Positions 1 to 50,431 of a stretch of 64,000 nt of DNA are shown piece after piece (positions within the stretch are counted from its first letter, which is position 1; the number at the start of each line of letters is the position of its first letter). This DNA comes from an uncultured Alphaproteobacteria bacterium (GTDB lineage: Bacteria > Pseudomonadota > Alphaproteobacteria > Rhodobacterales > Rhodobacteraceae). The stretch is taken from contig CACGMO010000007.1 of NCBI GenBank assembly GCA_902574225.1, positions 1 to 64,000 on the forward strand, read 5' to 3'. Both the position numbers and the translations under genes were made by a program. The notes under the pieces are model-generated. The model worked only from the letters and a program-made list of their open reading frames with translations, did no database searches and was not told where the DNA came from.

Positions 1-1464
1 GTAGAGGCTTCAGAGCGCTCAACGAAAAACTCTATCGGAATGGAGGAAGAAGATATTTCACAACTCGCAAGGTATTTTATAAAAAGACAACTATCTGAAA
101 TGGATTTACCTTCTGAAGCATCTCTACTATTAGATGCGAAAGAAGTGTTTAAAGATTTAACTGGTCAGCCGGAATTTAGCAAAACTGACGATATCCTTGA
201 TCAAGAGAAGTTTGCCCTTCTAAGTAGAAAGTTAATTGAAAGACTTGGGTATGGAGAACAGCTTGGGGAGCTAGATGATGCGGATAGTGATATAGAAGAA
301 AATAGTCAAGAGGAAGTAGAACAAGAAGAGGCAGGACAGGGATCAGACGACGAAGAAAATGATAATTCGGAAAATGGTGAAACAGATGATGGGGAGCCCC
401 AACAAACTGCAAGTGCGGATGCAGATATAGAAGATAGTCAGATAGAGGAGGCTATAGAAGGTGAAGATCAAAGTGAAAACCAAGTTATCCACAATATCCA
501 GAATAACCCATCTAAAGAAACATTTTATCAAATATTTGATGCAGCTAACGATCAAGAAATAAGTGCAAATAAGCTTGCGGATACAAGTGAATTGGAAAAA
601 TTGAGAGAATACTTAGATCAACAGCTAGATGGTCTAAAAGGTGCCGTATCGCGTCTGGCAAACAAGCTTCAAAGAAGACTGCAGGCTAAACAAAATAGAA
701 CTTGGAAATTTGATCTAGAGGAAGGATTATTAGATGCTGCTAAGCTGTCACGAGTAGTATTAAATCCAACCACGCCGTTAAGCTTTAAACAAGAGAGTAG
801 TACGAACTTTAAGGATACTATAGTTTCTTTATTGATCGATAATTCAGGCTCGATGCGGGGCAGGCCAATATCTATAGCAGCAATATCCACTGAAATACTA
901 GCTAAGACCTTGGAAAGATGTAATGTTAAATGTGAAATCCTAGGATTTACTACTAAGGCATGGAAAGGAGGACAATCAAGAGAAAAATGGTTGGCGCAAG
1001 GGCGACAAAAGAATCCAGGTCGTCTTAATGACCTAAGGCACATTATATATAAAAACGCCGATGAGCCTTGGAGAAGGGCCAAGCTAAACCTAGGTCTAAT
1101 GATGAAAGAAGGGCTTTTAAAAGAAAACATTGATGGAGAAGCTTTAGAATGGGCACATAAGAGGCTTATAAAGAGAGAAGAAAATCGAAAAATCTTACTG
1201 GTTATATCTGATGGAGCACCTGTCGACGACTCGACACTGTCTGTGAATCCTGCTAATTACTTAGAAAAGCACCTCAGACATATCATTAATAAAATAGAGA
1301 CAACAAATCGAGTACAGCTACTTGCTATTGGCATTGGACATGACGTAACACGATACTACAAAAAAGCCGTTACAATTACAGATGCTGAACAACTTGCTGG
1401 CGCCATGACCGAGCAATTAGCTGACCTATTTGAAGAAAAGAAAACCAACATAGGAAATTCTTGA
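1..1464 (+). CDS. cobT: Cobaltochelatase subunit CobT-like, 5' end outside window
   Basis: The C-terminal 487 residues of a CobT-type protein, partner of the AAA+ subunit CobS in aerobic cobalt insertion into hydrogenobyrinate diamide (cobalamin pathway). The frame is open to base 1 ([14 protein letters not shown]...), and CobT proteins are normally about 600 residues, so the ATG at 40 is internal and the true start lies upstream. A very acidic linker (about codons 88-160 from base 1) is followed by a C-terminal von Willebrand A domain with the MIDAS motif DNSGSM, whose Asp codon is at 838-840, and later the strand-turn motif [11 protein letters not shown]. Such acidic-linker plus VWA architecture is typical of CobT. 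The next gene starts directly after the stop. CobT/CobS homologues also persist in genomes without full cobalamin synthesis, so the substrate is inferred. Confidence 0.9.
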
Positions 1465-3255
1465 GTGTTAACTCAAAAAAAGTATAAGGATAATAAAAAA
1501 GAGTTATCAATAAGAGACAGACTTGCTCTTTTAAGAAAAAAACTCAAAGAGTGTGGGATAGATGCCTTTTTGGTTCCTCACAATGATATGTACTTCAATG
1601 AAATTACTGCGCCCTTTCACAACCGTTTGGAATGGATTACAGGATTTACTGGCTCAGCAGGATTTGCAATAATATTTAAAGACTCTGCCGTCATATTTAC
1701 TGATGGTAGATACAGCATTCAGATACGACAGGAAGTCGACCAATCTTTTTTTACAATTGAAAATATAACCAAGAACTCACCATTTTCTTGGTTACAGAAA
1801 AACGTTAAAAAAAATATAACAGTAGGTTTTGACCCTTGGTTGCACTCAATAAAGGAGATAGAAACACAAAAAGAAATGCTACAAAAGTCTATTAGACTTA
1901 AAGAAGTTAGTAACTTAATAGATGCAGTTTGGCTGAATAAGCCATTTGAAGCTTTGGCGAAACCCTTTTTAAGGCCGTACAAACTCTCAGGAGAAAATAC
2001 CGCTCAGAAAATAAAAAAAATACAGAAGAAACTTAACCTTTGTAAAGAACAGGGCTTTATACTTACCTGTTCTGACTCCATTTGCTGGCTAGCGAATATA
2101 CGAGGTGAAGATGTTCCGAACTCTCCCCTAATGAACTGCTATGCAATTGTGCACTATAATCATGTATGTATCTATTCTATGAGAGACGCTTATAAAAATT
2201 CTGCCATAGAACTTAGAAAAAATGTGCAATTGAAACATTTTGATTTTTTTTTTAAAGATATAAAAAAATTAAAAAAGGTTCTATTTGAGCCAACCAATAC
2301 CCCTTTTATTCTTAAAAAGAAAATCATAGGGCGAAGTATAGATTCTGAGAAGGTATGTAATGCTATATCTTTATTCAAGGCAAGAAAAAACCGAATTGAA
2401 TTAAAAGGTTCAATTCAGAGCCATGAAAAAGATGGGGTAGCCTTATTAAGATTTCTTAGGTGGTTTAAAAGCACAAAAGTCAATACCCTTGATGAGATCG
2501 CACTTGTGAAGAAACTGGAAAAAGTCAGAAAAATTGATTCATCTTTTTATTATAATTCTTTTGATACCATAAGTGCAGCAGGATCTAACGCTGCTATAAC
2601 TCATTATAGAGTGTCACCGAAGAGTAACAAGCAGATAAACCCCTCAGACCTGATATTGGTTGATAGTGGGGGGCAATACCTTGAGGGTACTACAGATGTT
2701 ACCCGAACCATAATAAAAGGACGAGTCTCGCCAGAACAGAAGTTTCTCTACACAAAAGTATTACAAGGCCTAATATGCCTAAGTAAGCTAAGATGGCCCG
2801 CAGGATTGACAGGAAAGGAATTAGATCCTTTGGCTAGATACTTTTTGTGGGAACATGGGTTAGATTACGACCATGGAACTGGTCACGGAGTGGGGGTGTT
2901 TTCAAATGTGCATCAAGGCCCTCAAGGAATTTCAAGACTTAATACGGTTCCGTTAAATCCCGGGATGATTTTAAGTGTCGAACCTGGAGTCTATTTGGAA
3001 GGCAAGTTAGGAATAAGATTGGAAAACTTAGTGTATGTTAAAAAGAAGAGTGGAAACTCAAGGAAGAAAGAATTTTTAGAATTTGAGACATTAACACTAG
3101 TCCCCTTCGAAAAAAAGCTCATCGAAAAAAATTTGCTTCGTCGCGACGAGTTACATTGGCTAAATTCATATCACGATAATGTCTATAATAAACTAAGTCC
3201 TATTTTAAATGTCTCTGAGAAAACATGGCTTAGAGACGCATGTAGGATTTTATAA
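1465..3255 (+). CDS. pepP: Xaa-Pro aminopeptidase (peptidase M24B, aminopeptidase P family)
   Basis: Cytosolic dinuclear-metal peptidase that removes an N-terminal residue preceding proline. The protein has 596 residues, the size of the long three-domain aminopeptidase P type: two creatinase-like N domains (about 1-310) and a pita-bread catalytic domain (about 320-540). Metal ligands visible are D400 and D411 (VDSGGQYLEGTTDVTRT), H474 (HGTGHGVG), E506 (SVEPGVY) and E520 (RLENL), a complete set. The start is a GTG abutting the stop of cobT, so the two are probably co-transcribed although functionally unrelated. It ends one base before the convergent thioesterase. Peptide specificity cannot be read from sequence. 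Confidence 0.92.
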   Translation: MLTQKKYKDNKKELSIRDRLALLRKKLKECGIDAFLVPHNDMYFNEITAPFHNRLEWITGFTGSAGFAIIFKDSAVIFTDGRYSIQIRQEVDQSFFTIENITKNSPFSWLQKNVKKNITVGFDPWLHSIKEIETQKEMLQKSIRLKEVSNLIDAVWLNKPFEALAKPFLRPYKLSGENTAQKIKKIQKKLNLCKEQGFILTCSDSICWLANIRGEDVPNSPLMNCYAIVHYNHVCIYSMRDAYKNSAIELRKNVQLKHFDFFFKDIKKLKKVLFEPTNTPFILKKKIIGRSIDSEKVCNAISLFKARKNRIELKGSIQSHEKDGVALLRFLRWFKSTKVNTLDEIALVKKLEKVRKIDSSFYYNSFDTISAAGSNAAITHYRVSPKSNKQINPSDLILVDSGGQYLEGTTDVTRTIIKGRVSPEQKFLYTKVLQGLICLSKLRWPAGLTGKELDPLARYFLWEHGLDYDHGTGHGVGVFSNVHQGPQGISRLNTVPLNPGMILSVEPGVYLEGKLGIRLENLVYVKKKSGNSRKKEFLEFETLTLVPFEKKLIEKNLLRRDELHWLNSYHDNVYNKLSPILNVSEKTWLRDACRIL

Positions 3256-8688: not shown

Positions 8689-10173
8689 TCAGTTAGCTTG
8701 TCTACGTAAAAAAGCTGGAATCTCTAATTTGCTTTCATCTTCTCTGTCTGTTATTAATTTTTCTTCTTGCTGAACTATTTGATCCTTTGTAAGTTCGTTG
8801 TCTTTTTGCTCTCTTTTTTCTCCAAAGCCTGTCATACGTCTTATAAGATTGTTCAAACCCCCACTCGAAGGTGCGGATTCAGCATTTTGCTTTCTTGAAG
8901 GTAGATTTATCTCTGAAGTAGATTGATTAAGAGGTTGCTCTGATTTTTTTTCACTTTCACTTTTATCCATATTATTAATATTTTCTTCAGAAGAAAATTT
9001 GGCTGAGCTTAAAGCGCTAGCTATTGGTTCCAACTCTTTTTTTTCTTTATCTAAAGTATCGCCATCAATTGTGGATTGCTCGTCTTTGATCTGACTTTCT
9101 TGCAAAATATCTCTAGCAAAATAGCTTTGCTGATCGGTGTTATCGACTTCAATTCTGTCCAACTCGTTTAGTTCATTGAGTGCATGCGAATTAGGCTTTG
9201 AAAATTCAGCTACATCTATGCCAGTAGCCACGACAGACACTCTGATAGACCCTGTAAGCTCTGTGTCAAAAGTTGATCCAACTATTATATTAGCCTCTGG
9301 ATCTACTTCATCTCTAATTCTATTTGCTGCCTCATCTACCTCAAATAGAGTCATATCATTACTGCCTGTTACATTTATAAGTACACCAGTAGCTCCCTTG
9401 AGAGAAATCTCATCCAATAAAGGATTAGCTATTGCCTTCTCCGCAGCCTGCAATGCTCTATCCTCACCGCTAGCTTCTCCCGTTCCCATCATTGCTTTTC
9501 CCATTTCATCCATGACAGACCTCACGTCGGCAAAGTCCAAATTGATAAGTCCAGGTTTAACCATTAGATCCGTTACACCTTTTACACCTTGGTAAAGAAC
9601 ATCGTCAGCCATAGAAAAAGCTTCAGTGAATGTTGTCTTTTCGGTTGCTAGTCTGAATAAGTTTTGATTAGGGATTACTATTAGAGTATCTACCACCTTC
9701 TGCAATGCTGATATTCCCTCATCAGCTTGTTTCATTCTGGTGGTACCTTCAAATTGAAAAGGTTTCGTGACAACACCAACGGTTAGTATCCCCTTTTGTC
9801 TTGCCAGCTCAGCAACAATGGGAGCTGCCCCTGTGCCTGTACCACCACCCATTCCTGCTGTTATAAAACATAAATTTGCACCATCTAAAATATCTGCGAT
9901 CTGTTCAGTGCTTTCCACTGCAGCTTCATTTCCAACTTCCGGTTTTGCACCAGCTCCAAGTCCCTGAGTTCTTTTTAACCCCAACTGTAACTTTGTTTGC
10001 GCATTCGACTGCTGTAAGGCCTGTGCATCCGTGTTTGCAGCTACAAATTCTGCTCCCTCTAGATTTTTTAACATCATGTTATTTACGGCGTTTCCGCCAG
10101 CGCCTCCAATACCAAAAACTAGTATTCTTGGCTTCAATTCCTGGTGTTCAGGAATCCTTATATTTATTGCCAT
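8689..10173 (-). CDS. ftsZ: Cell division GTPase FtsZ
   Basis: Tubulin homologue that polymerises into the Z-ring; 494 residues. The globular GTPase domain (about 10-320) shows GGAGGNAV, the tubulin signature GGGTGTG (109-115) and the synergy-loop motif INLDFADV. A charged, low-complexity linker (about 325-480) is followed by the conserved C-terminal peptide [11 protein letters not shown] that docks FtsA and other partners. The long linker is typical of alphaproteobacterial FtsZ. A 113-base gap separates it from ftsA, the widest inside this cluster apart from the mraZ leader, and contains a candidate promoter with an inverted repeat (listed separately). Confidence 0.98.
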
Positions 10174-10210
10174 TGTTGCCTGCCATTGTAGTTTTTTTGT
10201 TTTTTTCTGC

Positions 10211-10247
10211 TGATTCGTATAATAACCGAATCACTTTAACTCGTCAC
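10211..10247 (-). promoter_or_regulatory. Candidate ftsZ promoter with dyad containing two GANTC sites
   Basis: On the minus strand a -35-like GTGACG (10242-10247) and a -10-like TATTAT (10219-10224) are separated by 17 bases, with ftsZ starting at 10173. The -10 lies inside the 9-base loop of a perfect inverted repeat TGATTCG/CGAATCA (10211-10217 and 10227-10233). Both arms contain GANTC, the CcrM methylation site of Alphaproteobacteria. The dyad is seen directly; promoter function and methylation control are inference. Confidence 0.45.
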
Positions 10248-10286
10248 TATTTTTATCTTCTAGTCAAATTTTTGTAAGGAGAGGTT

Positions 10287-11618
10287 TTACCAGTTTGATT
10301 TTACCCACCGCCATGTTCTTCTTATTAGCTCATCTCCTTCATGCTCAAAAGGTGCTTTAAAGTCCCATAACTCATCTTGCGGTTGAGCTAGATTTAAGGC
10401 TAGCCCTATAGCAGCAGCTGCTTCGGGGCCATGAGTTGATGCTGGCAGCCCTTGAATCCTCATTGGTACGGCGACGCGTGTTGGTTTTCCGAGAAATATA
10501 GAAGTAAAATCTAATATATTCGCTAACTTGCTACCCCCACCGGTTAAAACGACTTTTTGTCCAGGTAGAAACTCGAAGTCCGAGCTATCTAATATTATCC
10601 TAAGTGAATCGAAGATCTCCTCAACTCTGGGCCGAATTACTCCTAGTAACTCAGACTTTGTTATAGTTCTTCTGTCAGCGTAAAGATCTGTATTGTTCTC
10701 AGGCAATTCTATAGTTTCTCTATCATCCGAGTTGGCAGGAATCAAACCTCCATGCAAAACTTTTAATCTTTCAGCTGCTAAGAAAGAAATTTGAAATGCC
10801 TGCATAATATCGCTTGTTATATGTTGTCCTCCGATCTTTATCGATTCAGAAAAGATTAAATTCTTTCGAAAGAAAATTGATATACTCGAACTGGAAGCAC
10901 CTAAATCAATACAAACAACACCTACTTGCATTTCATCTTCAAGGAGGCTTGATTGCCCAGAAACATAGGGGGCAAGTGCTAATCCTGCCAGAGACAGATC
11001 ACATTTATTCAAACAAGTCACCATATTCTTTATTATATCCGATTGGATAGAAACAATGTTAACGTCGACCGACAGCTTCGATCCACTTATTCCCCTCGGG
11101 TCCATGTATCCATGCTTATCATCAATACTAAAATTAACTGGCAAAGCGTGGATTATTTCTCTTTTCAAATCATCATAAACAAGATTTACCTTTGAAAGCG
11201 CATGTCCGATATCTAGTTCTGTTACTTCCCTTTGAATAAATTCAATAGAGGATGAGATTAGAGTAGATTTCTGAGTGCCACTGGAAAAGGTCAGAAAAAC
11301 ATTCTCAATTAGGCAACCTGCCATTTTTTGGGCCCGTTGAATTACAGTCCTTATTGCACTTTCTGCTTCCCTCATCTCATATATTTCGCCATCCCTAATC
11401 CCTCTAGATTTTGTGGTTGAAGCACCGATAACTCTGAAAGTCACTCCTCTATCTGATTTACCAGTTGAGAATGAATTAATTTGATTTATCTCGCTGAGAG
11501 AAACTACTAAGCACATCACCTTGGAGCTTCCAAGGTCTATCAGAGCAACAGTTCCCTTTTTTATAGCGGCCAACCTTTTTTGCCTTAACTGCCTCTGACT
11601 CTGCAATAATTTCCTCAA
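10287..11618 (-). CDS. ftsA: Cell division protein FtsA
   Basis: Actin-like ATPase that tethers FtsZ to the membrane and recruits division proteins; 443 residues. Phosphate-1 motif ALIDLGSSKVMCLV near residue 25, phosphate-2 VVCIDLGASSSSISIF and adenosine motif VVLTGGGSKL are visible. The C-terminal tail ends in an amphipathic basic stretch (RRTWRWVKSNW) matching the membrane-targeting helix. The start is a TTG overlapping the ftsQ stop (TTGA); no ATG precedes the conserved core. About 20 basic residues before the core are usual in alphaproteobacterial FtsA. Confidence 0.96.
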   Translation of the reverse strand: MRKLLQSQRQLRQKRLAAIKKGTVALIDLGSSKVMCLVVSLSEINQINSFSTGKSDRGVTFRVIGASTTKSRGIRDGEIYEMREAESAIRTVIQRAQKMAGCLIENVFLTFSSGTQKSTLISSSIEFIQREVTELDIGHALSKVNLVYDDLKREIIHALPVNFSIDDKHGYMDPRGISGSKLSVDVNIVSIQSDIIKNMVTCLNKCDLSLAGLALAPYVSGQSSLLEDEMQVGVVCIDLGASSSSISIFFRKNLIFSESIKIGGQHITSDIMQAFQISFLAAERLKVLHGGLIPANSDDRETIELPENNTDLYADRRTITKSELLGVIRPRVEEIFDSLRIILDSSDFEFLPGQKVVLTGGGSKLANILDFTSIFLGKPTRVAVPMRIQGLPASTHGPEAAAAIGLALNLAQPQDELWDFKAPFEHEGDELIRRTWRWVKSNW

Positions 11619-50389: not shown

Positions 50390-50431
50390 TGGAACAGACC
50401 GCCCAGATTTAATATACATTAAATCGAATCA
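50390..50431 (+). promoter_or_regulatory. Candidate glyA promoter with a GANTC site
   Basis: TGGAAC (50390-50395) and TATACA (50413-50418) with a 17-base spacer make a fair sigma-70 promoter, about 45 bases before the glyA ATG. CGAATCA (50425-50431) follows, placing a GANTC near the expected transcription start. Weak evidence. No glycine or tetrahydrofolate riboswitch could be recognised in the 171-base gap. Confidence 0.3.

Follow-up and report, generated by a model that had tools for sequence, protein, structure and literature searches.

Inverted GANTC sites flank the -10 element of a conserved Rhodobacteraceae ftsZ promoter that is probably read by CcrM and GcrA

In the window, i.e., the whole stretch of 64,000 nucleotides that was analysed, which comes from an uncultured member of the Rhodobacteraceae with a small genome, the gap between ftsA and ftsZ (Table 1) contains the perfect inverted repeat TGATTCG-N9-CGAATCA at 10211-10233. 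The repeat is laid out as 7-9-7 around a TATTAT hexamer, and on the gene strand, which is the minus strand, this hexamer is preceded at a distance of 17 bp by GTGACG. The repeat, its coordinates, the TATTAT as a -10 element and the GTGACG upstream of it had all been listed in a first-pass annotation of the same DNA, and the sequence confirms them. Between the TGATTCG arm and the -10 hexamer there are 2 bp, the GANTC of this arm beginning 8 bp ahead of the hexamer, and the CGAATCA arm begins 1 bp past it. The core promoter of ftsZ accordingly contains two GANTC sites, which are spaced 16 bp. Both arms, when each is read on its own strand, fit YGAKTCG, as had also been claimed, and this sequence is named as the context of GcrA sites in a comparison of 13 alphaproteobacterial species, where ftsZ is reported to be likely regulated by GcrA in some of them (PMC7987155).

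Table 1. Coordinates of the ftsZ promoter elements and of the genes around them in the window.
Feature	Position	Strand	Remarks
ftsA, upstream gene	10287..11618	-	TIGR01174, 280 bits
ATAAAA, just 5' of the -35 element	10251..10256	-	invariant in the genus alignment
-35 element GTGACG of the ftsZ promoter	10242..10247	-	invariant in the genus; [GA]TGAC is the anchor in the family
Upstream arm TGATTCG, between -35 and -10	10227..10233	-	GANTC at 10228-10232; predicted at about -20 to -16
-10 element TATTAT, in the loop of the dyad	10219..10224	-	fourth base is T, G or C in the genus
Downstream arm CGAATCA	10211..10217	-	GANTC at 10212-10216; predicted at about -4 to +1
ftsZ, gene driven by the promoter	8689..10173	-	TIGR00065, 418 bits; PF00091, PF12327
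Neighbour genes murG, murC, murB, ddl, ftsQ, lpxC			identified by eye from the translations

The positions of the two sites relative to the start in Table 1 assume the usual register of the -10 hexamer, i.e., -12 to -7. With this register the downstream GANTC would span the likely transcription start, which is predicted to lie at about 10211-10212, under the downstream arm. Directly after that arm the genus alignment has an invariant GCAG, and the ATAAAA on the far side of the -35 element is possibly an A/T-rich upstream element. Closer to the gene, an ATG seen by eye 13 bases 5' of the ftsZ start is out of frame with it and belongs to a 12-codon frame (10148-10186, minus strand) that overlaps this start. 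Near the ATG, ATGGCAGGCAA is invariant among 16 genus members, and it may merely be the ribosome-binding region, where relatives show CAGGCGGA.

The frequency of the dyad can be compared with what is expected by chance. The exact dyad, with a loop of 5 to 15 bases, occurs once in the window and in none of 100 shuffles. In the 2,091,865 bases of the assembly (88% complete), where the count covers GANTC pairs of the form GANTCG-N5..13-CGANTC only, this pattern is found at a single place, compared with 8 per strand for a reversed control pattern. The dyad is not a chance occurrence. GANTC as such occurs 113 times in the window, which has a GC content of 37%, and this is half of the shuffle expectation of 224; 8 of the 113 are in the YGAKTCG context. 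Since ACNGT, ATNCG and CGNAT, which are of the same composition, are as rare as GANTC or rarer, the three counts being 104, 108 and 110, the depletion is not specific for GANTC and says little about CcrM. The sigma70 match is not significant when taken alone (9 of 12, with 1 found and 1.0 expected), and the genome has 3 occurrences of GTGACG-N17-TANNAT compared with 2 for its control, so that the assignment of the ftsZ promoter is made because the promoter is conserved across the family.

Other GANTC sites in the window lie near recJ, in a cobT-like gene and 5' of a serine hydroxymethyltransferase gene. The recJ site is 45 bp 5' of the listed start of the reading frame, and a GANTC is present in that stretch in 9 of the 17 genus loci read (an eighteenth is cut), from which it appears that an ordinary upstream GANTC is kept less well than the ftsZ sites. 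A pair of GANTC sites at 1228-1249 sits within the cobT-like gene. The CGAATCA at 50426-50430, located in a divergent gap 38 bases 5' of the serine hydroxymethyltransferase gene, is a possible further site of the GcrA context.

The genus of the window is represented by 22 draft genomes, its own included, with sizes of 1.0-2.3 Mb and completeness of 58-91%. An ftsZ match is found in 17 of them, and since one contig ends before the promoter, 16 promoters are readable. When the ftsA-ftsZ gap is aligned across these relatives, as the first-pass annotation had proposed, the perfect dyad is intact in 16 of 16, with its spacing and inversion fixed. Invariant columns make up 22 of the 23 in the dyad, but 32 of 103 in the rest of the gap alignment and 1 of 128 at fourfold-degenerate ftsZ sites; the sole variable column of the dyad is the fourth base of the -10 element. 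Near-total invariance, when set against 1 in 128 fourfold-degenerate sites, implies that the block GTGATTCGGTTATNATACGAATCAGCAG is under strong selection. Locus L146, from another genus of the same family, joins the genus of the window on the FtsZ tree with support 90 and has TGATTCGGCTATCATAGCGAATCA, in which the loop is one base longer and the upstream arm is equally far from the -10 element. Two relatives, AG-426-E23 and AG-892-M03, are the closest that have a name, each being described as 'uncultured Alphaproteobacteria bacterium'.

The genome was searched for ccrM and gcrA, on which the idea of a methylation-dependent ftsZ promoter depended, and both are found by matches to domains and to structure chains. 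There is one CcrM, with an N6_N4_Mtase domain at 225 bits, which is the only match to this domain at E <= 0.001 in the assembly, and a RAMA domain at 61 bits; it matches the solved Caulobacter CcrM 6pbd at 510 bits over residues 18-367. There is likewise one GcrA (Pfam, 162 bits), both ends of which have matches among the solved chains of Caulobacter GcrA, namely 7ye1, 5yiu and 5yix, which represent the DNA-binding and the sigma-interacting parts. The stretches TRNAVIGKVHRLGL and CKWPIGDP are identical in this GcrA and that of Caulobacter. The GcrA complexes 7ye1 and 7ye2 reportedly have upstream and downstream sites, respectively. Both proteins miss the NCBIfam equivalog cut-offs, CcrM with 599 of 830 bits and GcrA with 146 of 280 bits, and these scores are read as distance from Caulobacter.

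Within the genus, RAMA is found in 14 and GcrA in 15 of the 22 drafts. Within the family, a CcrM-type RAMA domain is present in 287 of 296 genomes, that of the window included, and a RAMA hit is absent in 9; one of these (G296) has a 70% identical methylase domain that reaches the contig end. Among the other 8, drafts without a good CcrM hit and several of them on long branches, 6 have a GANTC within 260 bases 5' of ftsZ, and 1 of the 4 that can be scored has a core GANTC; if these drafts tip the balance at all, it is slightly away from a simple coupling of the sites to CcrM. Just 5' of ccrM itself, a GANTC in the context TTGACTCA occurs in the genome of the window (L062, reading frame 1159-2280, minus strand) and in all but one (L049) of the 12 other genus loci read, the 11 being L046, L048 and L052-L060, which accords with the naming of ccrM as a core GcrA target (PMC7987155). 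The 130-150 bases 5' of gcrA have no GANTC in any of 14 genus loci, the window's own included (L001, reading frame 1483-2094, minus strand, and L183-L195), in contrast to gcrA of Agrobacterium, for which six GANTC within 250 bp upstream are reported (PMC11514494).

A wider sample of ftsZ promoters, with names such as Ruegeria, Sulfitobacter, Amylibacter, Rhodovulum and 'Rhodobacteraceae bacterium', extends the comparison to the family. Its 80 named loci are the best FtsZ matches among those listed rather than a random sample, and its unnamed loci, 9 without RAMA and 21 others, mostly from small genomes, were chosen by the analyst. L063 and L064 were dropped as lying on the same contigs as L006 and L009, respectively, and L148, on the contig of L121, was left out of the tree and of the larger count. 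The anchor of each promoter was picked by its fit to GTGACG/TATAAT, blind to GANTC, and at least 4 of the 6 bases of GTGACG were demanded. Among the matches listed, all 78 named non-genus loci have [GA]TGAC as their best anchor, and in 72 of them the spacer measures 17 bp. In this same set of listed matches, 38 of the 78 loci have a core GANTC and 8 have the -10 element flanked by two GANTC, while windows outside the core have a GANTC in 1 of 70, 3 of 73 and 3 of 76 loci upstream and in 2 of 77 downstream.

The larger count is based on 119 non-genus loci minus 6 without a scored promoter, i.e., on 113 loci, which include near-duplicates (L145 and L080 are one contig, L106 and L155 have identical proteins) as well as four genomes without CcrM. 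A core GANTC is present in 50 of the 113, compared with a mean of 14.5 and a maximum of 23 in 200 shuffles, and the off-core windows have one in 4 of 100, 6 of 108 and 7 of 111 loci upstream and in 4 of 85 and 1 of 15 downstream. The core sites are placed upstream of the -10 element (31), over it (9) or downstream of it (20), and their commonest starts relative to its first base are -16, -12, -9/-8, +2/+3 and +8/+9. Core sites have the YGAKTCG context slightly more often than off-core sites (28 of 60 compared with 9 of 28), which is no clear enrichment, and it is found in 0 of the 9 sites over the -10 element. From such counts one could argue that the conservation reflects only a strong core promoter with the GANTC sites as passengers, since -35, -10 and start region are conserved anyway and 63 of the 113 scored promoters are without a core GANTC. 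This is improbable, because the arms in the spacer and in the start region are more conserved within the genus than the middle of the -10 element, and because core GANTC across the family is well above the shuffles.

On a quick FtsZ tree of 135 rows (130 inner branches, of which 52 are weak), a core GANTC appears or disappears at least 20 times, and the combination of an upstream with a downstream site does so at least 4 times, gains and losses being pooled. Two sites are found in the genus of the window and L146 (upstream site starting at -8), in 8 of the 12 rows that form the Amylibacter group (-12) and in L027 (-15). The distance between the sites is 16 bp for the genus, 17 for L146, 20-21 for promoters of the Amylibacter type and 23 for L027. 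From this tree, many forks of which are weak, the two-site state is read as having arisen more than once. The Amylibacter group (L066, L069, L094, L096, L097, L123, L129 and L134) has, like the window, GTGAC-17-TANNNT with a GANTC on either side of the -10 element, but its upstream site is 4 bp farther from this element. Its arms, CGAATCA or CGAATCG, both run in a single direction, so that GANTC is kept and inversion lost, whereas the arms in the window are inverted; this comparison of arms used a cruder anchor than the later family counts.

These relatives bear on two explanations in which GANTC is incidental or the DNA is not the site of action. The first had been part of the first-pass annotation, which considered the dyad as a symmetric site for GcrA or a repressor: the dyad would be the operator of another dimeric regulator, which, when bound over the -10 element, blocks or helps RNA polymerase. 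The perfect inverted symmetry, the -10 element in the loop and the invariance within the genus are what such an operator would have, but relatives retain GANTC while neither the spacing nor the inversion is kept, the downstream site occurs without an upstream partner in 10 of the 113 scored non-genus loci, and further sites are found at other core positions. The assembly, in addition, contains the dyad only once, although a regulator with a single target would be compatible with this. A dimeric operator is for these reasons unlikely, and the symmetric-repressor part of the earlier proposal lacks support. When GANTC is kept at varied positions, spacings and orientations, selection should act on a methylatable site and not on one operator, and a methylatable site near the -10 element fits better as the recurring feature than one dimer operator.

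The second explanation places the function in the RNA, as a hairpin or terminator between ftsA and ftsZ. The stem has a folding energy of -7.7 kcal/mol with a z value of -3.1, but it is not followed by a T run on the gene strand, and terminator prediction makes no call at this position. The arms are without compensatory change in the genus, relatives of the Amylibacter type drop the inversion and retain GANTC, and a transcript from the predicted start would miss the upstream arm, all of which makes a role at the RNA level highly improbable.

A further sequence upstream of ftsZ was seen by eye in 9 of 12 non-genus loci (L019-L024, L026, L029 and L030), where CCATATTTTGTGG or a near variant ends about 17-18 bases 5' of the GTGAC -35 element. 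Its fixed distance to the -35 element suggests the site of a separate regulator; the genus of the window is without it.

Methylation of adenine to m6A weakens A-T pairing. If the two GANTC sites are methylated, m6A in the -10 and start region might act without GcrA, by directly altering sigma contact or melting; the downstream site lies in the region predicted to melt, and GANTC overlaps the -10 element at the 9 loci noted above. Such a direct effect is quite unlikely as the main explanation, given that the upstream site is outside the melted region and that, in Caulobacter, methylated promoters are bound by GcrA, which together with sigma70 opens them (PMC3667746, PMC7403470). There, GcrA rides on sigma region 2, by which the affinity goes up and opening becomes faster (PMC7403470).

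In Caulobacter, a CGACTC between -35 and -10 is required for CcrM activation of ftsZ, and the activity of this promoter increases from the unmethylated over the hemimethylated to the fully methylated form (PMC3708114). For mipZ, the motif is reported near the transcription start (PMC3708114), and two juxtaposed GANTC sites are bound by GcrA (PMC3667746). GcrA binds best to fully methylated DNA and, on some hemimethylated probes, prefers one of the strands (PMC3667746). A GANTC is located no more than 50 bp upstream of 96 cell-cycle start sites, 11 of which have two or more. Where the GANTC falls between -10 and -35, activation comes at 40-60 min, a time at which a second group, whose GANTC lies outside this interval, has its minimum (PMC4287350). 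A perspective on Rhodobacterales doubts a major role of methylation in this order on the basis of ctrA promoters (PMC8116508).

The ftsZ promoter in the window resembles that of Caulobacter in that a GANTC conserved among relatives lies between -35 and -10 and the genome encodes ccrM and gcrA. It differs in that the spacer site is TGATTCG rather than CGACTC, in that a second, inverted site lies over the start region and in that the promoter itself is GTGACG/TATTAT. With Caulobacter mipZ it shares a division gene, a GANTC near the start and the presence of two sites, GcrA binding being a feature of mipZ; the gene differs, and the likeness is drawn apart from the exact layout around the mipZ -10 element. 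On these analogies, the best reading is that the promoter joins a spacer site like that of Caulobacter ftsZ with a start-region site like that of mipZ. An inverted pair bracketing the -10 element of ftsZ, its invariance within a genus and the recurrence of GANTC at multiple core positions were not found in searches of open-licence PMC papers. The principle that links methylation to ftsZ is thus known from Caulobacter, and the two-site layout looks new.

The explanation that we favour, with a probability of roughly 0.7, is that ftsZ has a sigma70 promoter, the activity of which depends on CcrM methylation of the two GANTC sites flanking the -10 element, as read by GcrA. The expression of ftsZ would then probably be tied to the methylation state of the chromosome. 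The pair of sites, its conservation, the presence of both genes and the recurrence in the family are observed; methylation, GcrA binding, the start site and the sign of the effect of each site are the parts of the model that we infer. Several results weigh against it: 63 of the 113 scored non-genus promoters are without a core GANTC in a family where nearly all genomes have a RAMA domain, the YGAKTCG context is at most slightly enriched in the core, GANTC persists near ftsZ in most of the drafts without a good CcrM hit, and both proteins score under the equivalog cut-offs. A dimeric operator, an RNA hairpin or terminator and GANTC sites as passengers are judged weaker than CcrM and GcrA because of the evidence set against each above. 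What had been proposed from the letters of the window alone is in this way carried further by the presence of ccrM and gcrA, the conservation of the dyad, the GcrA context of its arms and the excess of core GANTC in the family, but without the symmetric repressor or dimer site.

In the proposed mechanism, CcrM methylates both GANTC sites. GcrA would be carried by sigma70, with its C-terminal domain on sigma region 2 and its N-terminal domain on a methylated GANTC, and would in this position help RNA polymerase to bind and open the ftsZ promoter. Passage of the replication fork would leave both sites hemimethylated until CcrM acts anew, and the output of ftsZ would for this reason track replication and remethylation. 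The upstream site, at -20 to -16, would remain double-stranded and is therefore the likelier activating contact. The downstream site, at -4 to +1, belongs to the part that melts and could act only before or during opening, either as a second docking site or by a methylated A that weakens pairing there. Since 16 bp correspond to about one and a half turns, two GcrA domains bound at the two sites would lie on opposite faces of the DNA.

One may also consider a more elaborate, doubtful case, in which the promoter is a strand-blind sensor of hemimethylation, its output taking one of three levels for full, half or absent methylation and being alike for the two sisters. As the arms are inverted, replication would leave either daughter duplex with exactly one arm methylated on its TGATTCG strand, and the sister chromosomes would show the same state at ftsZ whichever old strand they inherited. 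Activation would come from the upstream site, and the site downstream, lying in the melted region, would adjust how readily the promoter opens. This case leans on the preference of GcrA for one strand of some hemimethylated sites (PMC3667746).

If CcrM and GcrA act at this promoter as proposed, the link between methylation and ftsZ would be extended from Caulobacter to Rhodobacteraceae, where it would have a tighter design. A core GANTC is present in about half of the sampled ftsZ promoters and in all readable ones of the genus, which points in the opposite direction to the doubt about methylation in Rhodobacterales. As GANTC recurs at several positions of one and the same promoter, the family would offer a series for asking where a methylated site acts on sigma70 RNA polymerase, and named isolates among the sampled genomes make this position series testable.
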